A DNA stretch of 64,000 bases, taken from the NCBI RefSeq assembly GCF_001661595.2, contig NZ_LYPF02000004.1, positions 186,001 to 250,000 of the forward strand, read 5' to 3'. The stretch's first letter is position 1. Every line of letters starts with the position of its first letter. This stretch comes from Crocinitomix algicola. Lineage in GTDB: Bacteria > Bacteroidota > Bacteroidia > Flavobacteriales_D > Crocinitomicaceae. Shown here one piece after another: positions 22,580 to 40,396 of the stretch. The translations under genes and the position numbers were made by a program. The notes under the pieces were generated by a model, which saw nothing but the letters and a program-made list of their open reading frames with translations, ran no database searches and had not been told where the DNA came from.

Positions 22580-25015
22580 TTAAATCTTACCAATTATGGC
22601 TTCTGATACGTTAATAATATGATCACCAACTTTTTCACATGAAGAGAAAAGGTTATTAAAAATCATTCCACTTTCCATATTAAATTCAGAATTCCCGAGA
22701 TTTTCAAGATGCTCACCTCTCATTTTATCTCTCTTTTTATTGATCGCAATCTCTGCAGCATTTGCTTTATCAATAGAAACGACTGACCAATCTGAATTTA
22801 AATTCTCAATCATTATTTCAAATGCTTTGTCTACTAATTCAAACATTTCAACAAGGCTTTCTCTTTGTTTAGGCACGAACCAAATCTTGTGTTCATCTTT
22901 ACGTTCAATCGTTTTTGACATTTGATAATAAATGTCTCCAATTCGCTCCAAATCATTTACAATACTATTCATTGATCTAACCCGTTCTGCTGTCTCTTCT
23001 GACATTTCACCTTCAGAAACCTTTGCCAAATAAGTTGCGACTTCTATTTCTACACGGTCAGTTATTACCTCATATTTGGCAATTTTCTCATGCAGTTTAG
23101 TTTTCGTTTTTTTGTTTTGCTCGTGCAATAAAGATTGTGTAAACCTGGACATTCTACTTGTAATCTCACCAAATTTAGCCACTTCCTTTTTCGCTTCGTA
23201 AATTGATAAATCTGGCGTACCCATAATTCCTGACCCAATATAATCTAAATGGAATTCTTCATCTGCAGCACCTTTAGATTTAACTGTTTGTTCTGCCATT
23301 CTCACCAACCAAGGAACAAAAGGTAATAAGATAACCACGTTCAGTAAATTAAAAGTCGTGTGAAAAACGGCTAAACCAACGTTTGCAGCATCGGCGTTTG
23401 TGTAAGGATCACCATCAATAAATAATAAGGCTAATCCTTGAAGAATTATAGGGAATAATAAAATTGCCCAAGTCACCCCAATTAAGTTAAATAAAGAGTG
23501 GATTCTTGCTGATCGTTTTGCATGTACATTCCCAATTAATGAAGCAATCTCGGCGGTAATAGTCGTACCGATATTTTCACCTAAAATCATTGCAGATGCA
23601 ACTTCAAATGGAATTACTCCTCCCGCTACTAATGTCATTGTTAGTGCCATAGCTGCGGACGAAGATTGTATAATCACAGTTACCAAAGCACCTAAACCTA
23701 CAAACATGATAGGACCATACCAAACATCTCTAAAGTCTATGAAAAATTGAACAATCGGATGCTCTGGTCCTAAGTCAGGCACAGAATCTTTTAAGTAACC
23801 AAGTCCCATAAAAAGTAAAGAAAATCCTATGATTACACTTGACCATGTTTTAGCTTTTCCTTTAGTAAAAAACATTAACGGTGCACCAAATGCAATAAAG
23901 ATTAAGGCATAACTACCTATACTCACCTTAAACCCGAAAAGTAAAATCAACCAAGCAGTAATTGTCGTTCCAATATTGGCCCCCATCATTACTCCTGCCG
24001 ATTGTCTCAAGGTTAATAAACCGGCGTTTACAAAACTAACTGTCATTACCGTAGTTACTGATGAAGACTGAACAATTGAAGTAATACCGAACCCCGTAAA
24101 AACACCTTTAATTCGGTTGGATGTAATTGAACCTAACATATTTCGTAAACGAGATCCTGCAGCTTTTTGAAGTCCTTCACTCATTATTTTCATACCAAAT
24201 ATGAACATTCCTAGCGATCCAATCAAAATCAATAGTTTAAATACACCCCATGCACGTTCGGTTTCAAATTTGCCCGATTTAGACCAGTAGGTTTTATCAT
24301 CCAATACTAATCCAACTTTAAATACATAATTTTCCCCGCCAGGAATATCCTCTATTTTCTCTTTAATCTGATTTGCAGGAATGTTCTCAATGTACTCCCA
24401 AGGTGATTTATCGCTGTATTTTTCGTTTTGTTTTGCTCCAATTTTCGTGTTGTATTTAATCACGAATGTTGCGTTTGGATAAACGGAGATTATTTGGTTC
24501 ATTTTATCTAACTCTATTCCCCAGCTTATTTCGCCGGCTTCTACCTTGCCTTTTCCATTTCTATTTTTGAAAATTGTAGCACTAATTGAATTGATAGGAA
24601 TAATACGTTCGTCATAGACTATGCTTGATTCAGAGTTACCAGAACCAACCATAAGTTCAAAAAGTATATTCTCTTCAACGTTAGGAATAGTGATTGACGA
24701 GCTATCGGTATATGCAGCTTTCACTTCTTTCCATTGGTTACCATCTATGGGCTTATACTTAAATCCAATAAAATTCGCTTTTGATTTTAGTTGATCCCAA
24801 GCAAGTGTAAGGTCACCTTCTTTGAGTTCCTTTAATGTTTTTTTATGCGTATAGTTTTTAAAACTAAAGGAAAGGTTTTCAAGGTCCACTTGTACAACTA
24901 CTTCAGGAATAATAATAGCTGTATCAATATCCTCTTCTGATACATTTGGTGTCGAGCTTAAGCTAATGTTAATAGCCAAGAACATTAGGCTTAAAAGCAA
25001 TACAATTCTTTTCAT
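22580..25015 (-). CDS. Na/Pi symporter-PhoU fusion with a large N-terminal extracytoplasmic domain
   Basis: An 811-residue protein. Signal peptide (about 1-20), then about 235 residues of beta-rich extracytoplasmic sequence with Tyr/Trp/Gly spacing suggesting fibronectin-like modules, then a Na/Pi cotransporter core (about 260-565) with two inverted repeats marked by TSIVQSSSVTTV...GANIGTTITA and TVIIQSSSAAMAL...GENIGTTITA, then a C-terminal PhoU-like helical domain (about 590-805). The core imports phosphate with sodium; PhoU domains moderate phosphate transport. The N-terminal domain is not part of the usual NptA/PhoU layout. The gene is divergent from a phosphate-porin-like gene, and its promoter carries a perfect two-unit TTAACA repeat 42 bp from the -7 element. 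Confidence 0.88.
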   Translation of the reverse strand: MKRIVLLLSLMFLAINISLSSTPNVSEEDIDTAIIIPEVVVQVDLENLSFSFKNYTHKKTLKELKEGDLTLAWDQLKSKANFIGFKYKPIDGNQWKEVKAAYTDSSSITIPNVEENILFELMVGSGNSESSIVYDERIIPINSISATIFKNRNGKGKVEAGEISWGIELDKMNQIISVYPNATFVIKYNTKIGAKQNEKYSDKSPWEYIENIPANQIKEKIEDIPGGENYVFKVGLVLDDKTYWSKSGKFETERAWGVFKLLILIGSLGMFIFGMKIMSEGLQKAAGSRLRNMLGSITSNRIKGVFTGFGITSIVQSSSVTTVMTVSFVNAGLLTLRQSAGVMMGANIGTTITAWLILLFGFKVSIGSYALIFIAFGAPLMFFTKGKAKTWSSVIIGFSLLFMGLGYLKDSVPDLGPEHPIVQFFIDFRDVWYGPIMFVGLGALVTVIIQSSSAAMALTMTLVAGGVIPFEVASAMILGENIGTTITAEIASLIGNVHAKRSARIHSLFNLIGVTWAILLFPIILQGLALLFIDGDPYTNADAANVGLAVFHTTFNLLNVVILLPFVPWLVRMAEQTVKSKGAADEEFHLDYIGSGIMGTPDLSIYEAKKEVAKFGEITSRMSRFTQSLLHEQNKKTKTKLHEKIAKYEVITDRVEIEVATYLAKVSEGEMSEETAERVRSMNSIVNDLERIGDIYYQMSKTIERKDEHKIWFVPKQRESLVEMFELVDKAFEIMIENLNSDWSVVSIDKANAAEIAINKKRDKMRGEHLENLGNSEFNMESGMIFNNLFSSCEKVGDHIINVSEAIIGKI

Positions 25016-25087: not shown

Positions 25088-25104
25088 TGTTAAGCTTATG
25101 TTAA
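25088..25104 (-). promoter_or_regulatory. Candidate Pho box, Na/Pi-PhoU promoter
   Basis: On the minus strand two TTAACA units are separated by exactly 5 nt (11-bp period). This equals the TTAACA direct-repeat pattern known for Bacillus PhoP boxes. The G before the second unit's TTAACA-equivalent lies 42 bp upstream of the TTTG of the -7 element, the same distance as at 27424-27440 and 35412-35450. Confidence 0.55.
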
Positions 25105-25222
25105 CAAAGGGTCTTGTTAATTATATGTCAGGTTCAATTTATTTTAAATCTCAAAACACTTAAAACGCATTAAAACAAGCTGTTAAAACGTGTTTTTAAG
25201 TCGTTTTTTCTTCTATTCTATG

Positions 25223-25250
25223 TTAATATAAGGTTAAGATTAGGTTGTGT
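25223..25250 (+). promoter_or_regulatory. Candidate Pho box, phosphate-porin promoter
   Basis: Three units at 25223 (TTAATA), 25234 (TTAAGA) and 25245 (TTGTGT), each 11 bp apart and each preceded by G. The -7-like element CAACTTTG (25277-25284, one mismatch) follows. Confidence 0.5.
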
Positions 25251-25375
25251 ATGTAAAAAATATGTTAATAATAACGCAACTTTGCATCAAAATAATCAAG
25301 AGCTAATTCGTGTTAACTCTTTAGTTAACAGATGTCTGGATTAGTTTACAATAAATTAACTTAAGCCTTTTCGTA

Positions 25376-26602
25376 ATGAGAATAGCTTTTACAGGACTTT
25401 TGTTCTTTTTGGGTGTAGCAACAGCTCAAGCGCAATACGTTCCTAAAACCTTTGGTAAAGGAATAAATTTTATCGGTAAAGATTCGACTTTTTCAATGAA
25501 ATTTGGAATTCGATTTCAGACATTAATGATGGCGGATTGGACAGTGAGCAATGATCAACTTGATAAGATTGGGCAATTAGAATCTAATTTTTTATTGCGT
25601 CGTTCACGATTAAAGTTCAACGGCTTTGCATTTCTTCCATCATTGAAATATAAAGTAGAGTTGGGGTTGTCAAATCGAGACATTGGTGGTGGAACAAGTA
25701 GTGAATATAGTAATGCTCCTAGGTTTATTTTGGATGCGTACTTGGATTGGAATTTTTATCAGAATTTTACGCTTCGAGTGGGACAGTCAAAATTACCAGG
25801 AAATAGAGAGCGTGTGATTTCATCAGGCGATTTAGCCTTAGTTGATCGATCATTATTAAATAGTCGATATAATATTGATCGAGATATAGGTTTACAATTA
25901 AAACATCATTTTACATTTGGAAAAAACTTTTTAGTTCGAGAAATAGTTGCCTTTTCACAGGGAGAAGGAAGAAATATAACGGTTGGCAATATTGGAGGAT
26001 ATGAATATACTTTTCGTTTAGAAATGTTGCCTTTTGGTAAGTTCGATTCAAAAGGAGACTATGTAGGTGGCGGACTGACACGTCCAAACTCACCGAAGTT
26101 GGCTGTTGGAGTAACTTATGATATTAATGAAGATGCTCCCAGACAAAGAGGGCAGGGCGGCCATTTTATTAAGAATTTAGATGGTAGCTATGCAGGGGAG
26201 ACCTTATACACTTTTTTCGGTGATTTAATGTTTAAATATAAAGGCTTGTCGGTAATGGTTGAATATGCGCATAAAACAACGGAAGATGGAACACCTTCAG
26301 TATTTGATAAATACAATGAAAATTTCCTAATTGGCAGACATTATACGGGGAAAGGTGTAAATGTTCAAGCGGGCTGGTTATTCAAAAATAATTATGAATT
26401 AACCACAAGATTTACTCAGATTAACCCTAATTCTTCAATTGAAAAGGAGGAAAAAGAATACACAATTGGTCTTTCAAAGTATATTGTTGGGCATAAATTA
26501 AAAGTTCAAACTGACTTGTCTTATCGTTCAAATTCGAATGAATTTGGTGATGGAGTGGACGATCAACTCTTCTGGAGAGTACAGGTAGATCTTCATTTTT
26601 AG
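25376..26602 (+). CDS. OprO/OprP-like phosphate-selective porin
   Basis: A 408-residue outer-membrane beta barrel. Signal peptide of about 20 residues (ends ATAQAQ), then FSMKFGIRFQTLMMADW and alternating barrel strands such as RRSRLKFNGFAF, DAYLDWNFYQNFTLRVGQSKLPG and LQLKHHFTF, the pattern of the OprP/OprO porin family; the C-terminal strand ends FWRVQVDLHF with a final Phe. It would form a channel for phosphate or polyphosphate. The context supports this: it is divergent from the Na/Pi-PhoU gene and followed after 118 nt by a PhoB-like regulator, and both promoters have TTAA-type 11-bp repeats. Selectivity residues cannot be assigned by eye. Confidence 0.85.
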   Translation: MRIAFTGLLFFLGVATAQAQYVPKTFGKGINFIGKDSTFSMKFGIRFQTLMMADWTVSNDQLDKIGQLESNFLLRRSRLKFNGFAFLPSLKYKVELGLSNRDIGGGTSSEYSNAPRFILDAYLDWNFYQNFTLRVGQSKLPGNRERVISSGDLALVDRSLLNSRYNIDRDIGLQLKHHFTFGKNFLVREIVAFSQGEGRNITVGNIGGYEYTFRLEMLPFGKFDSKGDYVGGGLTRPNSPKLAVGVTYDINEDAPRQRGQGGHFIKNLDGSYAGETLYTFFGDLMFKYKGLSVMVEYAHKTTEDGTPSVFDKYNENFLIGRHYTGKGVNVQAGWLFKNNYELTTRFTQINPNSSIEKEEKEYTIGLSKYIVGHKLKVQTDLSYRSNSNEFGDGVDDQLFWRVQVDLHF

Positions 26603-26639
26603 TAGCTTTTTCAAGGGTTTGACTAAGGTAAATTTTGCG

Positions 26640-26667
26640 TTATTTTAATGTTATGTATTTATTATTA
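26640..26667 (+). promoter_or_regulatory. Candidate degenerate Pho box before the first PhoB-like gene
   Basis: Units TTATTT (26640), TTATGT (26651) and TTATTA (26662) repeat at 11 bp. They are more degenerate than the others. The -7 element TACTTTTG lies at 26693-26700. Confidence 0.35.
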
Positions 26668-26692
26668 ACTTAAATGCGCAATCAATAATGTT

Positions 26693-26700
26693 TACTTTTG
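26693..26700 (+). promoter_or_regulatory. -7 element for the first PhoB-like gene
   Basis: TACTTTTG, exact TAnnTTTG match, 20 nt before the ATG at 26721. Confidence 0.55.
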
Positions 26701-26720
26701 CTTAAAATTTAACTGAATAG

Positions 26721-27407
26721 ATGAATAATTCTGTACTCGTTATCGATGATGAGCAAGACATCAGAGTCTTGATAAAATACAATTTAGAAAAAGAAGGGTT
26801 TATAGTTTCCGAAGCTTCAAATGGAGCGGATGGAATTGAAATTGCTAAAAAGAATATCCCTGACCTAATTCTTTTGGATGTAATGATGCCAGGAATGGAT
26901 GGGATTGAAACCTGTGAAAAGCTAAAAGAAATCCCCGAGCTTCAGTCCACCATGATTTGCTTTTTAACGGCGCGCGGAGAAGATTATTCTCAAATTGCAG
27001 GATTTGATGCTGGAGCAGATGATTACATCACAAAACCAATTAAGCCAAAATTATTAGCAAGCAGAATCTCGGCTGTACTTAGGCGAAAAGGCGGTGGAGA
27101 AATAGTGGATGGACTGAATGGAGAAGGGGCTAAAGAAAAATCAATAACGATTGATCGCGAGCGCTATTTGATTTCAAAATCTGGCAATGAAATGTTTTTA
27201 CCACGTAAAGAATTTGAATTGTTAGCCCTATTAATGTCTAAACCGGGTAAAGTATTTCATCGTGACTCTATTATGAATAATGTTTGGGGGACAGATGTCG
27301 TAGTTGGTGATAGAACGATAGATGTTCATATCCGAAAATTGCGTGAAAAAATAGGAGACACGCATATCGTCACCGTTAAAGGTGTTGGGTATAAGTTTGA
27401 AGATTAA
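26721..27407 (+). CDS. OmpR-family response regulator, PhoB-like (copy 1)
   Basis: A 228-residue two-domain regulator. Receiver domain (1-120): acidic pocket D9-D10, phospho-acceptor D53 in LILLDVMMPG, switch Thr83 in LTARGEDYSQ, and K105 in ITKPIKP. Winged-helix DNA-binding domain (about 135-228): FLPRKEFELLALLMSKPGKVF, the recognition-helix segment RTIDVHIRKLREKIG and the terminal VKGVGYKFED. It is complete and should be phosphorylation-competent. Its position behind a phosphate porin and its own TTAA-type repeats suggest the phosphate regulator PhoB/PhoP, but no histidine kinase is nearby. A close relative lies at 35505-36167. Confidence 0.9.
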   Translation: MNNSVLVIDDEQDIRVLIKYNLEKEGFIVSEASNGADGIEIAKKNIPDLILLDVMMPGMDGIETCEKLKEIPELQSTMICFLTARGEDYSQIAGFDAGADDYITKPIKPKLLASRISAVLRRKGGGEIVDGLNGEGAKEKSITIDRERYLISKSGNEMFLPRKEFELLALLMSKPGKVFHRDSIMNNVWGTDVVVGDRTIDVHIRKLREKIGDTHIVTVKGVGYKFED

Positions 27408-27423
27408 CAATTCGATTTTTTCG

Positions 27424-27440
27424 TTAAACATATCTTAATC
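27424..27440 (+). promoter_or_regulatory. Candidate Pho box before the CPA2 antiporter
   Basis: TTAAAC (27424) and TTAATC (27435) are 11 bp apart; the second unit is 42 bp from the TTTG of the -7 element at 27472-27479. Only two units, so moderate to weak. Confidence 0.35.
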
Positions 27441-27471
27441 ATTTCAGTGTAAATGGATTTTAGCAAAATGT

Positions 27472-27479
27472 TATTTTTG
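27472..27479 (+). promoter_or_regulatory. -7 element for the CPA2 antiporter
   Basis: TATTTTTG, exact match, 38 nt before the ATG at 27518. Confidence 0.5.
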
Positions 27480-27517
27480 TATAGCTACGAGCTAAATAAC
27501 AATCTAACCTTTTGCCT

Positions 27518-29524
27518 ATGCATTTACCCATCTTGCCGGATATCGTAATAATTCTTGGGTTATCCGTTTTTACGATACTTATTTTTCAAAAAATAAAACT
27601 TCCAGCAATTTTAGGGTTTCTTATTACTGGGATTATAGTGGGGCCTTATGGACTGAATTTAATTGAGGCTAAACATGAAGTAGAAGTACTTTCTGAGATT
27701 GGAATTATTTTTTTATTGTTTGTAATAGGTATTGAATTCTCCTTAAAAGGATTGGCATCCATAAAAAATACAGTATTAATTGGTGGTGGTGTTCAGGTAA
27801 TTGGTACAATTGGTTTAGTCACATTTTTAGCTTACGAATTGGGGTTATCCATTCAGTCGGCTGTATTTATGGGATTTTTAATTTCTTTAAGTAGTACAGC
27901 GATTGTTTTAAAAATGCTTCAAGAAAAAGGGGAGTTGATTTCCCCTCATGGTAGAGTGGCTGTTGCTATTTTAATATTTCAAGATATTATAGTCGTGTTA
28001 ATGATGCTGTTAACACCTATTTTGGCTGGCCAATCAGATGATCCTATGAATGAGCTTTTATGGTTGCTCATAAAAATGATTGCAGTGGTTGCTGCCATTA
28101 TTATCCTCGCAAGATATGCTGTTCCAGTACTGTTAAAACTTGTGGTTCGCGCTAAAAGTAGGGAGTTATTTATTTTGACAACTATAGTGCTTTGTTTTTC
28201 AACTGCTTGGCTTACCTCTTCTGTTGGTCTGTCGTTGGCGTTAGGTGCGTTTTTTGCAGGATTAGTTATTTCAGAATCCGAATATAGTCATCAAGCAACA
28301 GCTAATATTTTACCATTTAGAGAGATTTTTATCAGCTTCTTTTTTGTTTCGGTTGGAATGTTGTTGGATTTAAATTTTTTTATTGAGAATATCGTATACA
28401 TTCATCTACTTGCAATTGCTGTAATTGGATTAAAATTAATGGTTGTTATTATTGCTGTTTTATTGTTGAAATATCAATTACGCACCAGTTTATTAACTGG
28501 ACTTGCACTTTTGCAGGTAGGTGAGTTTGCTTTTTTATTATCTACTGTCGGTATGCAATATGATTTATTGTCCGAAACCGTTTATCAATATTTTCTTGCT
28601 ATCTCTATTATCTCAATGGGAGCAACACCATTTATCATTAACTGGTCACCGCAATTAACTCATTATTTATTACGAACGCCTTTGCCACCAAAAGTAAGAG
28701 AGCGTTTAAAAATGAATGCTAAAAAGAAAGAACTAGAAGAGAAAAATACAACAGAGAATTTTCATGATCATGTCGTAATTATTGGTTACGGGTTAAATGG
28801 TCAAAATGTCGCAAAAGCAGCTCGAAAAGCAAATATTCCATATGTTATTATTGAAATAGATCCACAAGCTATAAAAAAAGCAAAGGATAAAGGAGAGCCT
28901 GTTGTTTTTGGAGATGCAACAGACACTGTCATTTTAAAACATGTACATATTCAAGAAGCGCGTGTTGTTGTGGTGGCAATATCCGCTCATGATGCCACCA
29001 GAAGTATTGTTAAAACCGTTCGTCTGTTTACTGAAACTGCACATATTATCGTTCGCACACGCTATATTAAAGAAGTTGATGAAATTATAAAAATAGGGGC
29101 TGATGAGGTGATACCTGAAGAGTTTGAAACTTCAATCGAAATCTTTACGCGTGTCATGAAAAAATATTTAATTCCTAATGATGAAATTGAAGAGTTTATT
29201 ACGGATATACGATCCTATAACTATGAGGCATTTCGCAGTATTCCAAATATTCCAAATGGCGTAAGTACATTTCAAGTCCATATCCCCGATATGGAAATTG
29301 CCGCTATTCATGTGTTACAGGGTAAAAACAGCATTGTTGGACATACAATCTTTGAAACGGGGCTTCGAAAAAATTATAACGTAACCGTTTTAGCAATTAA
29401 ACGAGATTCATCTTATATTCTTGAGATAAATGAAGATACAAAAGTTATTCAAGATGATATTATTTATTTGTTCGGATCACCAGATGATATCATTAAAGTA
29501 AACAAATATTTTGTCTATAAATAA
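27518..29524 (+). CDS. CPA2-family cation:proton antiporter with C-terminal RCK (TrkA-N/TrkA-C) domains
   Basis: A 668-residue KefB/KefC-like protein. About 12-13 transmembrane helices occupy residues 1-380 (for example ILGFLITGIIVGPYGLNL and IIFLLFVIGIEFSLKGL, with conserved Gly/Asp positions of the Na/H exchanger fold). A TrkA-N Rossmann domain follows (about 410-530; HVVIIGYGLNGQNVAKAA with GxGxxG-like loop and IIEID strand end), then a TrkA-C domain (about 580-668). It would exchange K+ or Na+ for H+, gated by nucleotide. ATG 27518 is preferred; a TTG 6 nt earlier is in frame. Its presence in the phosphate block may be a neighbour effect or ion balancing for Na-coupled uptake (inference). 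Confidence 0.9.
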   Translation: MHLPILPDIVIILGLSVFTILIFQKIKLPAILGFLITGIIVGPYGLNLIEAKHEVEVLSEIGIIFLLFVIGIEFSLKGLASIKNTVLIGGGVQVIGTIGLVTFLAYELGLSIQSAVFMGFLISLSSTAIVLKMLQEKGELISPHGRVAVAILIFQDIIVVLMMLLTPILAGQSDDPMNELLWLLIKMIAVVAAIIILARYAVPVLLKLVVRAKSRELFILTTIVLCFSTAWLTSSVGLSLALGAFFAGLVISESEYSHQATANILPFREIFISFFFVSVGMLLDLNFFIENIVYIHLLAIAVIGLKLMVVIIAVLLLKYQLRTSLLTGLALLQVGEFAFLLSTVGMQYDLLSETVYQYFLAISIISMGATPFIINWSPQLTHYLLRTPLPPKVRERLKMNAKKKELEEKNTTENFHDHVVIIGYGLNGQNVAKAARKANIPYVIIEIDPQAIKKAKDKGEPVVFGDATDTVILKHVHIQEARVVVVAISAHDATRSIVKTVRLFTETAHIIVRTRYIKEVDEIIKIGADEVIPEEFETSIEIFTRVMKKYLIPNDEIEEFITDIRSYNYEAFRSIPNIPNGVSTFQVHIPDMEIAAIHVLQGKNSIVGHTIFETGLRKNYNVTVLAIKRDSSYILEINEDTKVIQDDIIYLFGSPDDIIKVNKYFVYK

Positions 29525-29559
29525 TTCCGTATCTTACACGCAACTTTAAATTATTTCAA

Positions 29560-30324
29560 ATGAAAAAGATACTTTTAGTAGTGCTACTTGCTGCGGGCTT
29601 TAATGCATCCGCTCAAAACAACTCTGTTAAATTTACCGTATCGCCTAGCTTGGCTTTGGCCAACAACCTAGCTTTTAGTTATGAACGTAAATTCTCAGAC
29701 AAATTATCTGTAAATGCGCGCGTTAACTTTACTTCTAAAAAGGCGGTGCCGTTTAACAAAATTGCAAAAAATCAACTCGGACCAATACTGGATTCCGCAG
29801 GTGTAAATTCCGATATTCTTGACACCAGAATAAACTCTTTTGGAGCAAATCTACAACTAAAGTATTTCCCGGGAGGAAATGCCTTAAGAGGGCTTTATCT
29901 TGCTCCATATATAGGTTTTCAAGGTGCGAGTATGAATGATTTCGAATTTGATTTCCCAGACTCAAGTGATCCATCTATTAAACACGGCGGTACCGTAGAG
30001 TCTGGATCTTTATTTTTTGGAGGAGGTATTGGAATTGGTAACCAATGGGTAGCTAACAATGGATTGACCCTTGATATTATGTGGTTAGGGTTAGGATGGG
30101 GAACGAATAATATCACATTCAGAGGTACAGATTCTTCTGGTGATATTAATTATGAAGAAATAAATAATGACGTGCAGGATTTTGCTGCAGAAAATGAAGA
30201 GGATTTCTCTCAATTTGGAGCAACAGTAGATAGCGAATATTCAAGCAGTGATATTAAGGTCTTTGTTAAACATCCTTTTCCTTATGTGAAAATTTTGAAT
30301 TTTTCAATCGGATACTCATTCTAA
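29560..30324 (+). CDS. Small outer-membrane beta-barrel protein
   Basis: A 254-residue protein with a signal peptide (MKKILLVVLLAAGFNASAQ) and an eight-to-ten strand barrel pattern of the OmpA-like/porin_fam group: VKFTVSPSLALANNLAFSYER, LQLKYFPGG, LYLAPYIGFQG, GGIGIGNQWV and the C-terminal strand VKILNFSIGYSF ending in Phe. One loop (about residues 195-225) is very acidic. No specific function can be named. It lies 35 nt after the antiporter gene and is followed by a strong terminator, so it is probably the last gene of that transcript. Confidence 0.78.
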   Translation: MKKILLVVLLAAGFNASAQNNSVKFTVSPSLALANNLAFSYERKFSDKLSVNARVNFTSKKAVPFNKIAKNQLGPILDSAGVNSDILDTRINSFGANLQLKYFPGGNALRGLYLAPYIGFQGASMNDFEFDFPDSSDPSIKHGGTVESGSLFFGGGIGIGNQWVANNGLTLDIMWLGLGWGTNNITFRGTDSSGDINYEEINNDVQDFAAENEEDFSQFGATVDSEYSSSDIKVFVKHPFPYVKILNFSIGYSF

Positions 30325-30348
30325 ACACCGCGATTAAATTTTTGCGAA

Positions 30349-30377
30349 GCGAATCGGAATTCCGGTTCGCTTTTTTT
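30349..30377 (+). terminator. Intrinsic terminator after the beta-barrel gene
   Basis: GCGAA...TTCGC arms (30349-30370) extend through CGGAATTCCG with one T-G pair, followed by seven T residues. Confidence 0.88.
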
Positions 30378-30402
30378 ATTTTTAAATTTTAAAGAAGAAA
30401 AT

Positions 30403-30768
30403 ATGAAAGCAAGTCCTGAACATAATGAACGAATGGCAAAAATGACTTTTGCTTCGGTATACCCACATTATATAACTAAGGTTGAAAAGAAAGGGAGAAC
30501 AATTGAAGAATTGCATCAAGTTATTACTTGGTTGACTGGTTTTAATGAAGAACAAATCGCTCAATTAATAGTTGAAAAAGTAACTTTTAAAACGTTTTTT
30601 GAAAGAGCACATTTACATCCCAATGCTCACTTAATAAAAGGCGTAATTTGCGGTTATAGGATTGAGGAACTTGAAAATGAGCTTACCAAAAATGTTCGCT
30701 ACCTTGATAAACTAGTAGATGAGTTGGCAAAAGGCCGTAAAATGGAGAAGATTCTTAGGTCTGTTTAA
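30403..30768 (+). CDS. DUF2200 family protein
   Basis: A 121-residue cytoplasmic protein matching the DUF2200 family along its length, most clearly MTFASVYPHYITKVEKKGRT and the ELHQVITWLTGF segment, then FFERAHLHPNAHLIKGVICGYRIEEL. The family has no established biochemical role. There is no signal peptide or membrane helix; the protein is mostly helical. It lies alone between a terminator and a 240-nt spacer. Confidence 0.85.
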   Translation: MKASPEHNERMAKMTFASVYPHYITKVEKKGRTIEELHQVITWLTGFNEEQIAQLIVEKVTFKTFFERAHLHPNAHLIKGVICGYRIEELENELTKNVRYLDKLVDELAKGRKMEKILRSV

Positions 30769-30901
30769 TTCCTATTCACATGAAAAAAATAATTAACATG
30801 AACTAAATCTCAGTTTTTACGCTTAAAGATATTCAGTTTTCACTGATAATTCTCGACGCAAATAATGTTCAATAATCTGTAAATCAGCATTTTGAAGTAA
30901 G

Positions 30902-30939
30902 TTAATTTAAAGTTAATTCGAGTTAACGTTAAAGTAATA
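30902..30939 (+). promoter_or_regulatory. Candidate Pho box before the beta-helix lipoprotein
   Basis: TTAATT (30902) and TTAATT (30913) are 11 bp apart; further TTAACG (30923) and TTAAAG (30929) words follow slightly out of register. A near-consensus -7 (GATCTTTG, 30982-30989) lies about 50 bp downstream, farther than at the other promoters. Confidence 0.4.
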
Positions 30940-31008
30940 GTCAAATAACTATAGACTAACATCTTTTCGAAGCATCTGTATGATCTTTGCCTCATAAAAC
31001 AAAAAAAA

Positions 31009-32250
31009 ATGAAAATGAAAAAAAGATTATTTCCAACAGCTGTTGTCGCTTTAGGTGCTTTAGCTGTAATGGCTTCATGTAAAAAAGAAGGTTGTTCAGA
31101 TCCTGCTGCAACTAACTATGATGAGAAAGTAAAAGAAAAAAATGACGATGGTTCTTGTGTTTACCCATCTGTATTAGTTGATACAGTTTACGTTTCTGAA
31201 AATGTTACTGCAAATACAACTTGGGAGTCTGGTAAAACATATATCTTAACAAGCCGTATTGCTGTAACTGGTGGAGCAACTTTAACAATTGAGCCTGGTA
31301 CAGTAGTAAAAGGTGAGGCTGGTTCTGGTGCAAACGCAACTGCTTTAATTATTGCTAGAGGTTCGAAAATTATGGCTGAAGGAACTGCTTCTGAGCCAAT
31401 TATTTTCACTTCAACTGCAGATCACTTAGTACCTGGTGAAATCCAATCTCCGAACTTATCTTCTGATTTAGATGGTTTATGGGGTGGATTAATCGTTTTA
31501 GGACATGCTCAAATTTCAGCAGATGCTGAATCAGTTCAAATTGAAGGAATTCCAGTATCTGATCCAAACGGATTATATGGAGGAACAGATAATGCTGATA
31601 ATTCAGGTGTTATTTCTTATATCTCTATTCGTCACGGTGGAGCTAACATCGGTGAAGGGAACGAAATCAATGGTCTTACTTTAGGAGGTGTTGGTTCAGG
31701 AACTCAAATCGATCACGTAGAAATCGTAGCTAACCAAGATGATGGTGTTGAGTTCTTTGGTGGTTCTGTTAGTGTATCTGATTTGATCGTTTTCAATAAT
31801 GGAGATGATGCAATTGATACAGATCAAAACTGGATCGGAACATTATCTAACTTCATCGTTATCAATCCTGGTGATGAGGCTATGGAATTAGATGGACCAG
31901 AAGGAGCTGTTTTAGGTGGTAACTTTACTATCACAAACGGATCTGTTTACATGGACGGTGGTGATGGAATCGTTGATAATGATGATAACACGAATGTAGA
32001 TATGAGCAATGTTTATTTCTTCGGATTATCTTCTGGTCAAGATTTCGATCAATTACCAACAGTAGCTTATAACATTACAAACCTTGAGGCAGTAATTCCT
32101 GACGGTGATGCAGTAGCTGATTACTTCAAAGGTGGTTCTGATGCAATGACAACTTCAGTAACAGCAGGTGCTCAAACTGTAGGGGCAAACAAAGCTGAGT
32201 TTGATACTTGGTCTTGGGCTGCGTTAGCTGGAATGTTAAGCGATTTCTAG
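31009..32250 (+). CDS. Beta-helix-like surface lipoprotein
   Basis: A 413-residue lipoprotein: N terminus KKRLFPTAVVALGALAVMASC with a lipobox ending at Cys26. Next comes a short Cys/Asp unit (GCSDPAATNYDEKV...DDGSCVYP) of a type common in Bacteroidota surface proteins and probably calcium-binding. Residues about 60-400 show the repeating short beta strands of a right-handed parallel beta-helix (GATLTIEPGTVVKG, ALIIARGSKIMAEG, then many Gly/Asn/Asp turns). Codon and residue use is even and repetitive, suggesting strong expression. It is directly upstream of a TonB receptor and may deliver substrate to it (inference). The start is ATG 31009 or 31015. Confidence 0.75.
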   Translation: MKMKKRLFPTAVVALGALAVMASCKKEGCSDPAATNYDEKVKEKNDDGSCVYPSVLVDTVYVSENVTANTTWESGKTYILTSRIAVTGGATLTIEPGTVVKGEAGSGANATALIIARGSKIMAEGTASEPIIFTSTADHLVPGEIQSPNLSSDLDGLWGGLIVLGHAQISADAESVQIEGIPVSDPNGLYGGTDNADNSGVISYISIRHGGANIGEGNEINGLTLGGVGSGTQIDHVEIVANQDDGVEFFGGSVSVSDLIVFNNGDDAIDTDQNWIGTLSNFIVINPGDEAMELDGPEGAVLGGNFTITNGSVYMDGGDGIVDNDDNTNVDMSNVYFFGLSSGQDFDQLPTVAYNITNLEAVIPDGDAVADYFKGGSDAMTTSVTAGAQTVGANKAEFDTWSWAALAGMLSDF

Positions 32251-32284
32251 TCACAGAAAAGAAACATTTACATAACAATTTGTT

Positions 32285-32327
32285 AACTCGCGAATAACCG
32301 TAAGGCTGTTCGCGAGTTCTTATTTTT
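32285..32327 (+). terminator. Terminator of the lipoprotein gene, overlapping the next promoter
   Basis: A perfect 10-bp stem (32285-32294 with 32309-32318) and 14-nt loop are followed by CTTATTTTT. The T-rich tract is also the -7 element of the TonB receptor gene. Confidence 0.75.
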
Positions 32328-32328
32328 G
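32321..32328 (+). promoter_or_regulatory. -7 element for the TonB receptor gene
   Basis: TATTTTTG, exact match, 29 nt before the ATG at 32358; it lies within the U-tract of the preceding terminator. Confidence 0.55.
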
Positions 32329-32357
32329 CACCAGTTTTTAAAAATAATCAATTGGAA

Positions 32358-35243
32358 ATGAAAAATTTAATTTGGGTCCTCTTCGGGCTAATCAGTATTT
32401 CAGGGTTCGCGCAAGAAGCTGAAAAGGGCTTTATTAGAGGGACAGTCTACGAAGCAGCATCGGGTGAAACCATGCCAGGTGTTAAAGTAGAGATTATTGG
32501 TAGAGGTCAAGTGGCTAAAACAGATCTAGATGGTCAGTTTTCAGTGAGTATTGAGCCAGGTGAATATTCAATTCAATTTAGTTTCTTTTATGTTAACACG
32601 TTGTTAATTGAAAATGTCGTGGTAACAGCAGGTGAAACAAATTACCTCGAAAACCTAAATATGGAAGAGTCATCTAATGAGTTGACTAAGATTGTGGTTT
32701 ACGAAGAGCGTACAACAAATACTGAAAATGCGATTCTCCACATCAAAAAGAAAAACCCAAATATGATTGATGGTATATCCAGTTCAAGTTTTAGAAAAAT
32801 TGGTGATTCTGATGCTGCTGGAGCAATGACTCGGGTACCAGGAGTTTCTGTAAGTGGTGGAAAATACGTTTATATTAGAGGATTAGGTGATCGTTATAAT
32901 AAAACATTGTTAAATGGAATGGACGTTCCTGGCCTTGATCCGGATAAAAACACCATTCAAATGGATATTTTCCCAACCAATATTCTTGATAATATCATTG
33001 TAAACAAATCTTTTTCTGCAGAATTACCTGCTGACTTTGCTGGGGGAGTTATCGATATTTCTTTGAAGTCTTTTCCTGAGGAAAAACAAAGAAAAATTTC
33101 AGTTGGTACAGGGTTTAATCCTTACTTTCACTTTAATAAGGATTATTTAACTTATGATGGTGGTAAAACTGATTTCTTAGGGTTTGATGACGGTTCTCGA
33201 GCAATTCCTGCCACTGAAAATATACCGTTTTTCTCAGAAGCAATTGGTGATCCTGAAAAAGCAGACAGATACAAAGAGATTCTTGGTAAATTTAATCCGG
33301 TAATGGGTGCTTATCAGCAAATGAGTTTAATGGATTATAGCTTGTCTGGTTCTTTCGGTAATCAAATTAAAAAGGGAGAAAAAACGATTGGTTATTCAGG
33401 AATGTTCTCTTATAAGAATAATACAGAATTTTATAAAGAAGCAATTTTTGCGCGATATGGTTTGTCAGGCGATCCTGATGAAATGGAAATGCAAACAAGA
33501 GAATATCAAACTGGTAGTTATGGCGTAAACAACGTTTTGTTAACTGCCATGGGAGGTATGGCAATTAAGTCAGCAAGTTCAAAATATACGTTCAATGTAT
33601 TACACTTACAAAATGGTGAATCTAAAGCAGGTATATTTGATTATCTAAACTCTGATCAAGGAGCAATTTTTCAAGGTTATCAGCATAACTTAGAATACAG
33701 CCAGCGGTCATTAACCAATGTTTTATTTAGTGGTAAACATAATTACGACGATAATGATTGGGAAATTGATTGGAGAATTGCGCCAACACTTTCTTTAATC
33801 AAAGATCCAGATATTCGATTTACAAGATACGAAGAGCGTGATGACACGTTAATAATTGGAACTGAAGCTGGATTCCCTGAGCGAATTTGGCGAGAACTCG
33901 TTGAGAAAAATGTTGCTGGAAAAATTGGTGCAACAAAAGAGTTTAAAGCTTGGGAAAGAGATGCGAAGCTGAAGTTTGGAGGCGGTTACACTTTTAAAAC
34001 TCGAGATTTTGTGATTCGTAACTTTGCGATGAACGTTCGTAATGTCAACTTAACTGGTGATCCAAACGAGTTGTTTACTGAAGAAAATATCTGGCCGCAT
34101 AACGGAGATATTGGAAAAGGAACAACTTATGAAGTATCTTTCCTTCCTTCAAATCCTAACCAGTATAGTTCAAATGTTCATAATGCTTCAGCATACATTT
34201 CTACAGAAGTAAGTCCAACTAAACGAATTAAAGCGGTAATTGGCCTTCGTGCTGAAAGTTATACACAATTCTATACCGGTCAGGATCAATTGGGGTTAAA
34301 TGTCTTGAGAAATGATGTAGTCTTACAAGATTTAGGAATTTTCCCTTCATTAAATCTAGTGTATCAAGTTACGGATCGACAAAATTTAAGGTTCTCTTAT
34401 GGTATTACAACAGCACGTCCTTCATTTAAAGAATTATCTTATGCTGAGATTTATGACCCTGTTAGTGGTCGTACGTTTATCGGTGGATTATTTAAAGATG
34501 AAGATGCCGTATCAGGAAATGTTTATTGGGATGGTGAATTAGAAGTTACGGACATTCATAATATCGATGTTAGATGGGAAACATTTAACTCACCTGGTCA
34601 AACAATATCGATTACGGCCTTTTATAAAAAGTTCTATAATCCGATTGAAATTGTTCAGTTTTCGGCGCAAGTTGGATCTTTTCAACCACGTAATGTCGGT
34701 GACGGAGAATTGTTAGGTGGAGAATTCGAAATGAGACAAGGTTTGAAATTTATTTCTGAGAAGATGCAAAACTTCTCTTTCAATTTAAATTTAACTTATA
34801 CGTTGTCTCGAATCCTATACAGTGATACCGAGAAAGAGAGTCGTGTGGCTAACGCAAGAACTGGACAAGAAATTGGCGACTACAGAGATATGGCGGGACA
34901 AGCACCGTATCTAATAAATGGTGGTTTAGCATATAATGGAGGAGCAGAGGGATTTGCAAAAGGATTAGAGGTTGGTGTATATTATAATGTTCAAGGAAGA
35001 ACATTACAATATGTCGGAATAGTTGACCGACCAGACATTTATTCTGTACCATTCCACAGCTTAAATTTTAATGCCAATAAAACATTCGGTAAAAATGAAC
35101 AGTACCAATTCGGATTAAAGGTTTCTAACCTGTTGAATGATGAAAAAGAGACGATGTTCAGATCAATTAATGCTCAAGATCAAATCTTCTCAAAATTGGC
35201 GCCAGGAACAACTGCAGCTGCTAAATTTAGCATTAAGTTTTAA
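32358..35243 (+). CDS. TonB-dependent outer-membrane receptor
   Basis: A 961-residue receptor. Signal peptide (about 1-18, ends GFAQ), a carboxypeptidase-regulatory-like beta domain (about 22-105; IRGTVYEAASGETMPGVKVEI), a plug domain (about 115-235; GAMTRVPGVSVSGGKYVYIRGLGDRYNKTLLNG and DIFPTNILDNIIVNKSFSAELPADFAGGVIDI) and a C-terminal 22-strand barrel ending AAAKFSIKF with terminal Phe. It is not an SusC type, because no SusD partner follows; instead a beta-helix lipoprotein precedes it. Context suggests a phosphate-related ligand. ATG 32358 is chosen over an in-frame TTG at 32352. A terminator lies at 35273-35302. Confidence 0.92.
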   Translation: MKNLIWVLFGLISISGFAQEAEKGFIRGTVYEAASGETMPGVKVEIIGRGQVAKTDLDGQFSVSIEPGEYSIQFSFFYVNTLLIENVVVTAGETNYLENLNMEESSNELTKIVVYEERTTNTENAILHIKKKNPNMIDGISSSSFRKIGDSDAAGAMTRVPGVSVSGGKYVYIRGLGDRYNKTLLNGMDVPGLDPDKNTIQMDIFPTNILDNIIVNKSFSAELPADFAGGVIDISLKSFPEEKQRKISVGTGFNPYFHFNKDYLTYDGGKTDFLGFDDGSRAIPATENIPFFSEAIGDPEKADRYKEILGKFNPVMGAYQQMSLMDYSLSGSFGNQIKKGEKTIGYSGMFSYKNNTEFYKEAIFARYGLSGDPDEMEMQTREYQTGSYGVNNVLLTAMGGMAIKSASSKYTFNVLHLQNGESKAGIFDYLNSDQGAIFQGYQHNLEYSQRSLTNVLFSGKHNYDDNDWEIDWRIAPTLSLIKDPDIRFTRYEERDDTLIIGTEAGFPERIWRELVEKNVAGKIGATKEFKAWERDAKLKFGGGYTFKTRDFVIRNFAMNVRNVNLTGDPNELFTEENIWPHNGDIGKGTTYEVSFLPSNPNQYSSNVHNASAYISTEVSPTKRIKAVIGLRAESYTQFYTGQDQLGLNVLRNDVVLQDLGIFPSLNLVYQVTDRQNLRFSYGITTARPSFKELSYAEIYDPVSGRTFIGGLFKDEDAVSGNVYWDGELEVTDIHNIDVRWETFNSPGQTISITAFYKKFYNPIEIVQFSAQVGSFQPRNVGDGELLGGEFEMRQGLKFISEKMQNFSFNLNLTYTLSRILYSDTEKESRVANARTGQEIGDYRDMAGQAPYLINGGLAYNGGAEGFAKGLEVGVYYNVQGRTLQYVGIVDRPDIYSVPFHSLNFNANKTFGKNEQYQFGLKVSNLLNDEKETMFRSINAQDQIFSKLAPGTTAAAKFSIKF

Positions 35244-35272
35244 AGGGTAACCTTCATAAACAAATATCATTT

Positions 35273-35302
35273 CCCCTGCTGTTGATTCGGTAGGGGTTTT
35301 TT
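35273..35302 (+). terminator. Intrinsic terminator after the TonB receptor
   Basis: CCCCTGC (35273-35279) pairs with GTAGGGG (35290-35296) with one G-T pair and a 10-nt loop, followed by six T residues. Confidence 0.85.
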
Positions 35303-35411
35303 GTTTTTCATATTTCAATCATATTCGCTAAAAGAACGTATTGATAACGTTCAAATTCGTTAAAATTGAAGCCAATAGTAATACCTTGAATTCCTAGCAC
35401 GTAACATTAAG

Positions 35412-35450
35412 TTAATATACAATTCAACTTAGGTTAACACATCGTTAACC
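35412..35450 (+). promoter_or_regulatory. Candidate four-unit Pho box before the second PhoB-like gene
   Basis: TTAATA (35412), TTCAAC (35423), TTAACA (35434) and TTAACC (35445) repeat at exactly 11 bp. This is the longest and cleanest array in the window. Confidence 0.6.
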
Positions 35451-35504: not shown

Positions 35505-36167
35505 GTGGATCGAAAAGTATTAATTGTAGACGACGAGGAAGACATCCTTAAATTATTAAGTTATAACTTCGAAAAAGAGGGATATAAGGTGTTTACTGCC
35601 CAAACAGGGGAAGAAGCAATTAGTACTGCACTTAATGTTATTCCTGATATTATATTTTTGGATGTGATGTTGCCAGATATTGATGGAATTGAAGTCTGTG
35701 AAAAGTTAAGGAAACAACCTGCATTGAATAATAGTTATGTTTTGTTCCTCTCAGCGAGAGGAGAGGATTATTCTCAAGTAGCAGGATATCGTGCTGGCGG
35801 GGATGATTATATTGTAAAGCCTGTTCGTATGCGAGTATTACTGCATAAAACTAAAGCATTACTTGAACGTAACTTTGAGTCCATGGAGAGTAATGTTCGC
35901 GATTCCGTTCTTTTGGATATGGAGCGCTATTCGATTGTGAAAGATGGAAAAGAATCTATTATTCCTAAAAAGGAATTTGAACTGCTATCTTACCTTATGA
36001 GTGCGCCTGACAAGGTTTTTCGTAGAGAAGAAATTTTAACCAATGTTTGGGGTGATCCAAGAATTAGCGATCGTACGATTGACGTTCATGTACGTAAACT
36101 GCGTGAGAAATTTGGTATGGGAATAATTCGCACTGTCAAAGGGGTTGGTTATCGCTACATGGGGTAA
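35505..36167 (+). CDS. OmpR-family response regulator, PhoB-like (copy 2)
   Basis: A 220-residue receiver plus winged-helix regulator: D9-D10, phospho-acceptor D53 (IIFLDVMLPD), the SARGEDYSQVAGYRAGGDDYI segment with the conserved Lys in VKPVRM, then the DNA-binding domain (IPKKEFELLSYLMSAPDKVF, RTIDVHVRKLREKFG, VKGVGYRYMG). The likeness to copy 1 at 26721 is strong, including the shared ARGEDYSQ-x-AG and TIDVH-x-RKLREK stretches, so the two are paralogues. The start is GTG; no ATG is available ahead of the first strand. The gene follows the TonB receptor terminator, is preceded by the best TTAAC array, and has no kinase partner here. It converges on the M14 gene with a 2-nt gap. Confidence 0.9.
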   Translation: MDRKVLIVDDEEDILKLLSYNFEKEGYKVFTAQTGEEAISTALNVIPDIIFLDVMLPDIDGIEVCEKLRKQPALNNSYVLFLSARGEDYSQVAGYRAGGDDYIVKPVRMRVLLHKTKALLERNFESMESNVRDSVLLDMERYSIVKDGKESIIPKKEFELLSYLMSAPDKVFRREEILTNVWGDPRISDRTIDVHVRKLREKFGMGIIRTVKGVGYRYMG

Positions 36168-38872: not shown

Positions 38873-40396
38873 ATGCCTTTTAATTCCTTGTTTTCTTGGT
38901 TCATTAAGAAGCGAATTCATCAAATAGATTTATTTAAAAAATATCCGTTTGAAGTTCAAAACGAGGTGTTAATGCAGTTAGTTTTTCATGGAAAGGATAC
39001 AGAATGGGGAAGGCAGCATAATTATGACGAGATTAAATCATATGCTGATTTTCAAAAAGCGGTTCCGCTCACAAATTATGAAGTACTTTCTCCTTATGTT
39101 TCTCGTTTATTAAAAAATGAACAGGGTCTTTTATGGGATGATGAAATCAAATGGTTTGCAAAGTCTTCAGGGACAATGCGTGCAAAAAGTAAATTCATTC
39201 CTGTGTCAAAGGCCTCTTTAGAAGAGTGTCATTATAAAGGGGGGAAAGATTTATTAAGTCTGTATTATAATCAAATCCCAGATCGAAAATTATATAAGGG
39301 TAAACACCTCATTCTTGGTGGAAGTGCAGAGATTAACTACCTGAATGCGGATTCTTATTTTGGTGATTTATCGGCAATTATTTTGAAGAATATGCCGTGG
39401 TGGGCAGAATTGAGAAGAACTCCTGCAAAAGAAATTGCTCTGATGAGCGAATGGGAGGAAAAGATAGAGAAACTTGCTGAAACGACGATAGATCAAGATA
39501 TTTATATTTTAGCAGGTGTTCCCAGTTGGACCTTGGTTTTATGTAATCGAATTTTGGAAATAACTGGCAAATCACACCTTAGAGAAGTATGGCCTAATTT
39601 AGAATTGTTTATGCACGGTGGGGTGAATTTTGAGCCTTATCGCGCACAGTTCAAGAGACTTATTCCTTTTGATGATATGAATTATGTGGAAACATATAAT
39701 GCCTCTGAGGGATTCTTTGGTATTCAAGATGATTTTTCTGTTAACGAATTATTGTTAATGCTAGATTATGGCGTTTTTTTCGAATTTATTCCCATGCACA
39801 CCTATCAAGGTACAGATTCTAAAACCATTCTTCCTTTAGAAGAAATTGAATTGGGAGTTAATTATGCCCTTGTAATTTCAACCAATGCTGGGCTTTGGCG
39901 CTATATTATCGGTGATACCATCCGATTCACGAACAAATCGCCGTTTAGATTTGTAATTACAGGTCGTACCAAGAGTTTTATGAATGCTTTTGGGGAGGAA
40001 TTAGTCGTTGAAAATGCAGAACGGGCAATGCAAATGGCTTGCGAAGGTACAGGTGCTGAGATTTTAGAGTACACCGCTGCGCCAATTTACATGGAAGGGC
40101 AACATAAAGGTGGGCATGAATGGTTGGTAGAATTCAGTAAAACACCTGACGATCTAAGATTATTTACCCGTAAATTAGATGAAGCACTTAAATCTTTAAA
40201 TTCAGATTACGAAGCGAAACGTACAGGAGACCTTTCTTTGACAATGCCATTAGTTCGAATGGTAGAAAAAGACACCTTTTCCAACTGGCTAAAATCGAAA
40301 GGAAAGTTAGGTGGACAACATAAAGTGCCGCGATTAGCTAATGATCGAGGTATAGTAGATGAAATAAATGCCCTTTCACCCCCAATCGTGAGTTAA
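38873..40396 (+). CDS. GH3 family (auxin-responsive promoter-like) acyl-adenylate-forming protein
   Basis: A 507-residue protein of the GH3 superfamily. The adenylation motifs are visible: WFAKSSGTMRAKSKFIPVS (P-loop-like SSGT), LFMHGGVNFEPYR, VETYNASEGFFGIQ (motif with the conserved Tyr-x-Ala-Ser-Glu-Gly) and YIIGDTIRFT (Gly-Asp). In plants GH3 enzymes conjugate amino acids to hormones through an acyl-adenylate; bacterial members are widespread in Bacteroidota and their substrates are mostly unknown. There is no signal peptide. The stop overlaps that of the convergent membrane-protein gene in the palindrome TTAA. Confidence 0.88.
   Translation: MPFNSLFSWFIKKRIHQIDLFKKYPFEVQNEVLMQLVFHGKDTEWGRQHNYDEIKSYADFQKAVPLTNYEVLSPYVSRLLKNEQGLLWDDEIKWFAKSSGTMRAKSKFIPVSKASLEECHYKGGKDLLSLYYNQIPDRKLYKGKHLILGGSAEINYLNADSYFGDLSAIILKNMPWWAELRRTPAKEIALMSEWEEKIEKLAETTIDQDIYILAGVPSWTLVLCNRILEITGKSHLREVWPNLELFMHGGVNFEPYRAQFKRLIPFDDMNYVETYNASEGFFGIQDDFSVNELLLMLDYGVFFEFIPMHTYQGTDSKTILPLEEIELGVNYALVISTNAGLWRYIIGDTIRFTNKSPFRFVITGRTKSFMNAFGEELVVENAERAMQMACEGTGAEILEYTAAPIYMEGQHKGGHEWLVEFSKTPDDLRLFTRKLDEALKSLNSDYEAKRTGDLSLTMPLVRMVEKDTFSNWLKSKGKLGGQHKVPRLANDRGIVDEINALSPPIVS

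Follow-up and report, generated by a model that had tools for sequence, protein, structure and literature searches.

A lipoprotein–receptor pair with a probable link to the phosphate response

A lipoprotein gene adjoining the gene of a TonB-dependent receptor (TBDR) is a kind of pair already known from Flavobacterium and Caulobacter, and one such pair, located in a 64,000-nucleotide stretch of the Crocinitomix algicola genome (contig NZ_LYPF02000004.1, positions 186,001 to 250,000 of the forward strand; hereafter the window), is the subject of this analysis. As the kind is known, what is added here is the breadth of the pairing, the co-divergence of the two proteins, the repeats in front of the lipoprotein gene, the hairpin between the genes and an acidic site in the lipoprotein.

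In Flavobacterium johnsoniae, the locus PUSIV comprises Fjoh_0544 (PhoB), 0545 (a TonB-dependent transporter, TBDT) and 0546 (lipoprotein FII) within a phoBR cluster with an OprP porin, and PUSIII comprises 3856 (FI, the most abundant exoprotein) and 3857 (TBDT). The passages of Lidbury et al. that describe these loci state that low phosphate strongly induces TBDT 0545 as well as lipoprotein 0546, but not the porin of the cluster, that FII carries the pectin-lyase-fold entry IPR011050, and that FI–FIII show 31–36% identity to the Caulobacter lipoprotein at 50–54% coverage (PMC8115612). By this description, FII is like the window lipoprotein in adjoining a TBDT and in its assignment to a pectin-lyase fold, and its induction by low phosphate would be a shared trait as well, although two such F. 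johnsoniae lipoproteins lie 3' of their TBDTs, whereas in the window pair the lipoprotein comes first. In Caulobacter crescentus, the phosphate-starvation lipoprotein ElpS (CC0170) adjoins the TBDR CC0171, and a functional interaction of the two has been proposed from the co-occurrence of their homologues, as set out in the relevant passages of Le Blastier et al. (PMC2996285). ElpS differs from the window lipoprotein in its release, which depends on the type II secretion system (T2SS); the window pair has no adjacent T2SS gene. Plasmid homologues from Sphingomonas and Indioceanicola, which have an ElpS-like T2SS neighbourhood, match the window family (Sphingomonas, 34% over 262 columns with E 1e-27 for that comparison, and 171 bits against the family; Indioceanicola, 331 bits). 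By analogy, the pair would work like BtuB–BtuG, the vitamin B12 system of gut Bacteroides, without being a member of it: that system combines a TBDR with a surface lipoprotein lid, and it differs in ligand and regulation (PMC10404256).

We consider it probable, though well short of certain, that the window pair belongs to the ElpS/FII kind and serves for TonB-driven uptake with the help of the lipoprotein, under Pho control; for this system we infer a ligand, a complex of the lipoprotein with the TBDR, and import. The features of the pair, in window positions, are the following:

30902..30932, plus strand: Pho-box-like repeats 5' of the lipoprotein gene, with TTAA at 30902, 30907, 30913, 30923 and 30929, those at 30902 and 30913 being spaced 11 bp
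31009..32250, plus strand: beta-helix lipoprotein of the ElpS / FI-FII-FIII kind, 413 amino acids (open reading frame, alignment and predicted structure)
31078..31080, plus strand: codon of C24, the cysteine of the lipobox, which is found in 53 of 53 sequences of the alignment
31093..31158, plus strand: optional Cys/Asp unit, residues 29–50 (sequence)
31183..32091, plus strand: right-handed parallel beta-helix as predicted by the structure model, its strands running through residues 59–361
31663..31902, plus strand: acidic ladder, residues 219–298 (E219; D244, D245, E248; D266, D267, D270, D272; E293, D295, E298), from the alignment and the register of the model's strand list
32285..32318, plus strand: terminator-like hairpin with a U-rich tract behind it that reaches about 32328, a proposed attenuator between the two genes (folding and our own scan)
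32358..35243, plus strand: TBDR with a CarboxypepD_reg N-terminal extension, plug and barrel (first ATG at 32358; the start given by the open reading frame tool is a TTG at 32352)

Pairing and co-divergence across genomes

The lipoprotein and the TBDR are paired, and diverge together, across genomes. Loci were compared individually for the best 80 of 564 confirmed relatives (L153 and L155 are included in all counts of 80, and at least one locus is from Gracilimonas, which we take to lie outside Bacteroidota under current naming). Gene starts in these analyses, as in the repeat counts by gene class and the scans of gaps and promoters, were the first or lipobox-guided ATG, some of which may be wrong. 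A TBDR lay directly downstream on the same strand in 78 of the 80 loci, and in the other two the contig ended 58 bases past the lipoprotein gene. The phylum was sampled with 148 genomes, in each of which up to 12 lipoprotein and up to 5 TBDR candidates were scored; the window's own genome is among the matches. The lipoprotein was found in 89 (E 1e-40), the TBDR in 100 (E 1e-60) and both in 85. The two lay within 3 kb of each other in 82 of these 85, with the TBDR first in 68 genomes and the lipoprotein first in 14, one genome also having a pair on opposite strands. The pairing extends to plasmids, since 14 of 15 examined records, including those of Alteromonas, Pseudoalteromonas, Sphingomonas and Indioceanicola, carried an adjacent TBDR of the same family; the 15 were taken from 22 records with a relative, leaving out six of Pseudoalteromonas and one of Hymenobacter, and the Marinobacter (H2) plasmid record had no adjacent TBDR of the family. 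A prior interpretation, made from the letters of the window and here called the sequence-only reading, had named rare co-occurrence of the two genes in other genomes as grounds for its rejection, and these counts do not refute it. In a plasmid record of Bacteroides finegoldii (L197, 4815–6107), a relative of the lipoprotein that adjoins a TBDR of the family is split over two reading frames, through decay or sequencing error.

The protein distances of the lipoprotein and the TBDR were correlated with r 0.785 over 65 loci (65 of 78 were kept once TBDR frames below 900 amino acids had been dropped), the maximum of 500 permutations being 0.129; with the signal of the neighbouring PhoB removed, the correlation was 0.84 (n = 16). 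Seven regions from related genomes (L181–L187), in which there are two lipoprotein classes, A and B, were also compared. In L183 and L184, which carry both, each lipoprotein class is accompanied by its own TBDR class, the class A-associated TBDRs scoring about 1300–1415 bits against the window TBDR and the class B TBDRs about 200–230. A class B pair, with the TBDR first, fills the space between the two regulators in L181, L182, L186 and L187, and class B and class A pairs stand side by side in L183. In L184 (745–9724) a class B TBDR and its class B lipoprotein enclose the class A pair, within the phosphate site; in L185 there is no pair between the regulators, and its class A pair is about 33 kb away. 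The L184 arrangement looks as if the phosphate site gains and loses receptor pairs.

The constancy of the TBDR bears on another explanation, in which the lipoprotein helps a secreted phosphatase by activating or presenting it, and the TBDR serves for the uptake of an unrelated nutrient or for sensing. This explanation draws on Caulobacter, where, according to the passages on ElpS, there is more phosphatase activity outside the cell when this protein is overexpressed, and expression of cc0171 does not depend on elpS (PMC2996285). We hold it to be quite improbable, given that the TBDR is by far the more constant partner (the next commonest family is found in 27 of the 80 loci), that no secreted phosphatase was evident by eye among the 24 commonest neighbour families, two representatives of which were scanned, and that, in the same passages, deletion of cc0171 did not stop ElpS production, which argues against a sensor (PMC2996285).

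The predicted beta-helix of the lipoprotein and its acidic residues

As the sequence-only reading had it, a lipobox protein (31009–32250, lipobox Cys24) lies directly upstream of the receptor frame (32352–35243), on the same strand and separated from it by a gap of 101 bp. The lipobox pattern was matched in 77 of the 80 loci, and from the sequence the protein would be anchored through Cys24, probably at the cell surface. No Pfam match was obtained for the window lipoprotein. The Cys/Asp calcium-type unit of that reading is present at residues 29–50; it is, however, an optional N-terminal module, seen by eye in 18 of 24 near relatives and matched by a pattern in 11 of the 80 loci, and its region gives short N-terminal matches to other open reading frames of the same genome.

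The long parallel beta-helix, also part of that reading, is what structure prediction returns: AlphaFold2 on the 53-sequence alignment yielded a right-handed parallel beta-helix (mean pLDDT 90.3), and this model reached Z about 22 against many beta-helices with no single nearest family, PL6 lyases, AlgG, NosD, tailspikes and others being tied at this value. Since the fold search singles out no family, the absence of a family from it means little. A sequence search of the PDB with the A2 profile, admitting E values up to 10, turned up no relative. BtuG is generally described as a beta-propeller, the model obtained here being a beta-helix. Relatives from Pseudomonadota have one to three beta-helix profile matches per chain; those with two or three include the plasmid-borne relatives L065, L068 and L069 (Alteromonas, Indioceanicola and Pseudoalteromonas).

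A conserved feature of this predicted helix is acidic. Residues E219, D244, D245, E248, D266, D270, D272, E293, D295 and E298 are invariant in the 53 sequences, and D267 is present in 52. A further 18 domains came from class B pairs, from Pseudomonadota, from Aureibacter and, as controls, from two members of class A. Seven of the residues (E219, D244, D245, E248, D266, D267 and D270) were kept in every one of the 18, E293 and D295 each in 16 domains, and D272, R208 and H209 were variable. The acidic residues recur every 22–25 positions, at like places in successive coils of the model, and should therefore stack in the beta-helix. The resulting ladder looks like a cation site of the kind that pectate lyases have, and such a site would fit the capture of an anionic ligand via calcium. 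The basic residues invariant in the 53 sequences are K101, R208 and H209; of these, R208 and H209 were compared across other classes and phyla and are substituted there.

The same features have to be weighed for a surface enzyme, whether lyase, glycosidase or esterase, which would cut a phosphorus-bearing polymer and leave the product to be imported by the TBDR. Many of the lipoprotein's neighbours by fold are polysaccharide lyases, epimerases, glycosidases or phage tailspikes, the pectate lyase family PF03211 is weakly matched by 8 of the 53 members (best E 0.002), and a profile comparison puts D245 and D266–D267 on the aspartates of the NxDG and GDD motifs of GH28, which are catalytic in that family, where His, Arg and Lys complete the set. 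Membership in GH28 was nevertheless rejected: the register of the aspartates fits, yet the profile comparison with six GH28 proteins gave a probability of 1.1%, and GH28 (PF00295) is not one of the 24 families to which the 53 members gave any match when E values up to 1 were admitted. The replacement elsewhere of R208 and H209 speaks against an enzyme. Plant glycan binding or hydrolysis is suggested in the passages of Lidbury et al. (PMC8115612), and ElpS, according to those of Le Blastier et al., is not itself a phosphatase (PMC2996285). On balance we regard an enzyme as unlikely. PL6 was considered separately as a family for the lipoprotein and set aside, the profile comparison not being significant.

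The receptor

The receptor of the proposed uptake system comprises CarboxypepD_reg, Plug and barrel domains. In the NCBIfam scan it matched TIGR01782, below the cut-off, and one weak model, and it had no match to the SusC model; a scan of 16 proteins of the window, within 19791–43758, gave no SusD family, in keeping with the earlier statement that the receptor is without a SusD partner. Its model (pLDDT 86.9) is that of an ordinary TonB receptor, with FecA and PhuR as the top whole-model Foldseek ranks, and by sequence profile its N-terminal part matches chains of a TonB-linked receptor (9gbc), SusC and RagA. The SusCD and PusCD systems are similar to the window pair in having an N-terminally extended TBDR and a lipoprotein in one operon; they differ in the SusD-family partner, which the window pair lacks, and in the FecA and PhuR ranking of its receptor. 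In six gammaproteobacterial records, ExbB-type genes adjoin the pair, five of them also with ExbD and TonB.

Pho-box-like repeats and phosphate neighbours

In the window, the pair is flanked by two PhoB-like regulators, 54% identical to each other and both scoring under the curated PhoB cut-offs, with three other genes between the first regulator and the lipoprotein gene. No histidine kinase gene was seen by eye beside either regulator in the list of open reading frames; a PhoR-type gene is found in the examined stretch of 18 of the 80 relatives. The phosphate block around the pair contains:

22580..25015, minus strand: Na/Pi symporter with a PhoU domain (domain and NCBIfam scans)
25089..25237, no strand assigned: two Pho-box-like repeats, intergenic to the divergent Na/Pi and porin genes (motif scan)
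25376..26602, plus strand: OprO/P-type porin, PF07396 (domain scan)
26721..27407, plus strand: first PhoB-like response regulator (domain and NCBIfam scans)
35433..35448, plus strand: Pho-box-like repeat 5' of the second PhoB-like regulator (motif scan)
35505..36167, plus strand: second PhoB-like response regulator, GTG start (domain and NCBIfam scans)

The candidate Pho box proposed by the sequence-only reading proved better than chance. The pattern GTTAA-N6-GTTAA has 6 matches in the window against 0.30 expected, at 5 places that all fall within 25089–35449: two between the Na/Pi and porin genes, one 5' of the lipoprotein gene, one 5' of the second regulator, where both strands match, and a last one within the TBDR gene. 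In the 3.7-Mb genome it has 30 matches and is rarer than a mirrored control pattern (66), so that it is enriched locally only. In the 300 bases 5' of the lipoprotein genes of the relatives, pairs of TTAA peak at a spacing of 11 bp, with 85 pairs; the remaining spacings between 4 and 39 bp have 3–23 pairs each, apart from 22 bp with 45. An 11-bp pair is present in 54 of the 80 lipoprotein upstreams (shuffle mean 5.3, maximum 11). By gene class, it precedes 55 of 81 genes of the lipoprotein family, 4 of 8 porin, 3 of 5 Na/Pi and 16 of 28 PhoB-like genes (some of these in the intergenic region shared with the lipoprotein), and 10 of 83 TBDR genes. For longer other genes, with 469 upstreams, the pair is present at 11 bp in 31 and at 10 bp in 28, and in 620 other upstreams there is a mild TTAA peak at 11 bp too (50, other spacings 12–38).

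In Riemerella, PhoP is up in phosphate starvation and binds a core TTTAACA that resembles the Escherichia coli ArcA motif; in the passages concerned the motif is found at 579 of 583 peaks, and it is therefore broad (PMC9603813). ArcA boxes are described, in the part of the source used here, as direct repeats 11 bp apart, often with extra repeats at 11 or 22 bp, and PhoB boxes as having the same spacing, according to the authors (PMC3798270). Likened by motif, the Riemerella PhoP and ArcA elements lend independent support to the repeats as putative Pho boxes. Among openly licensed PMC papers, none was found on 11-bp TTAA repeats or a hairpin at elpS-type genes. The repeats offer a candidate Bacteroidota Pho box with which further phosphate genes could be found.

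A gene order beside phosphate genes, which the sequence-only reading had proposed as a check in other genomes, is common without being general: a PhoB-like gene lies within 1 kb in 22 of the 80 loci, and some phoB, Na/Pi or porin gene is present in the examined stretch of 29, while in the stretches of the other 51 there is none, two of these carrying a PiT-type gene. None of these phosphate neighbours was found in 29 loci with long flanks. The 51 loci, together with the generic nature of the Cys/Asp unit and the beta-helix fold, would suit a glycan or metal uptake system that is incidental to the phosphate block. Such a system is very improbable in our view, as the 11-bp repeat is present in 32 of those same 51 loci (22 of 29 with phosphate neighbours), and those neighbours that recur and have a clear role are PhoB/PhoR in 27 loci, PiT in 8, the OprO/P porin in 8 and Na/Pi in 5; no evident theme unites the other families that recur, MoxR (15 loci) among them. 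A MoxR-type ATPase gene near the pair was observed in loci without phosphate genes (L148, 8438–9427, and 14 other loci); in Riemerella, the passages on PhoP report moxR as bound by this regulator (PMC9603813).

The intergenic hairpin

The 101-bp gap between the two genes folds at -22.4 kcal/mol (z -4.0) around the stem listed above. The built-in terminator scan did not list this hairpin; our own scan, which allowed stems of 7–15 pairs with one mismatch and loops of 3–15, did. With that scan, terminator-like hairpins were found in 59 of 76 lipoprotein–TBDR gaps (75 of the 78 loci plus the window, gaps outside 20–450 nt having been dropped), the mean of 10 shuffles per gap being 0.7 and the maximum 2. 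Shuffles ignore relatedness, and other gaps provide the stricter control: among gaps of 50–250 nt, a hairpin was present in 55 of 68 pair gaps versus 45 of 158 other same-strand gaps, and one of the strongest class in 42 of 68 versus 19 of 158. The hairpin ends 12–52 nt before the TBDR start in 52 of the 59, and it also lies between the genes in 5 of 6 scored TBDR-first pairs. Judging from its sequence and place, it is possible that the hairpin is a leaky terminator or attenuator that holds the lipoprotein above the receptor.

A separate TBDR promoter behind the hairpin was also sought. The -7 consensus of Bacteroidota is TAnnTTTG, and it was not enriched in the gaps (7 of 76 versus 5.9 expected); the test is a weak one, and the consensus was not enriched in the lipoprotein upstreams either (16 of 80 versus 12.3 expected).

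Proposed mechanism

The mechanism proposed for the pair is that a PhoB-type regulator would bind the 11-bp TTAA direct repeats, which are evident in the sequence, and turn the operon on. The lipoprotein would be made first and in excess, as the hairpin and U tract would halt part of transcription before the receptor gene is reached. On the anchored lipoprotein, the conserved acids of successive coils may hold divalent cations, and thereby an anionic, phosphorus-rich ligand. The adjacent TBDR, with which the lipoprotein would be in contact, would import this ligand with TonB energy. With respect to the earlier proposal of a non-SusCD uptake pair linked to phosphate, the pairing, the absence of SusD and the Pho link are supported, and the uptake logic is plausible.

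Several observations weigh against this proposal, beginning with the 51 loci without phosphate neighbours. In the phylum sample, 7 of 89 lipoprotein genomes have no adjacent TBDR match and 18 of 100 TBDR genomes no adjacent lipoprotein match, absences that are soft because of the limit on candidates per genome. The 11-bp repeat precedes 1 of 18 PhoR-type genes. The stacking of the acids is taken from the strand register and not from measured distances. Hairpins resembling terminators also follow the TBDR stop, in 47 of 71 cases and so about as often as in the pair gaps; the hairpin may therefore be a complete terminator, the TBDR gene having a promoter of its own that was not recognised. In Caulobacter, according to the passages on ElpS, cc0171 is constitutive and elpS induced, deletion of elpS left phosphatase activity unchanged, and intracellular phosphate did not change significantly on the shift to poor medium, by a method that the authors call insensitive (PMC2996285). 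The passages on the ElpS/FII kind as a whole report no ligand, complex or transport.

A more specific form of the proposal is put forward tentatively, as one that we would sooner doubt than assume: the pair might represent a distinct lipoprotein-plus-TonB acquisition system, common to Bacteroidota and Pseudomonadota, in which a beta-helix uses its ladder of stacked acids to catch a phosphorus polymer through bridging cations and passes it on to a dedicated receptor, the attenuator setting the lipoprotein above the receptor. The pairing, the co-divergence, the repeats and the acidic site turn an orphan starvation protein into a testable two-protein uptake system.

A gene adjoining the phosphate block

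A GH3-type protein encoded at 38873–40396 adjoins the phosphate block and resembles the lyso-ornithine lipid synthetase OlsH (415.9 bits, the curated cut-off being 620). It may have a role in lipid remodelling at low phosphate. Similar N-termini are found in proteins beside the block in L181, L185 and L186.

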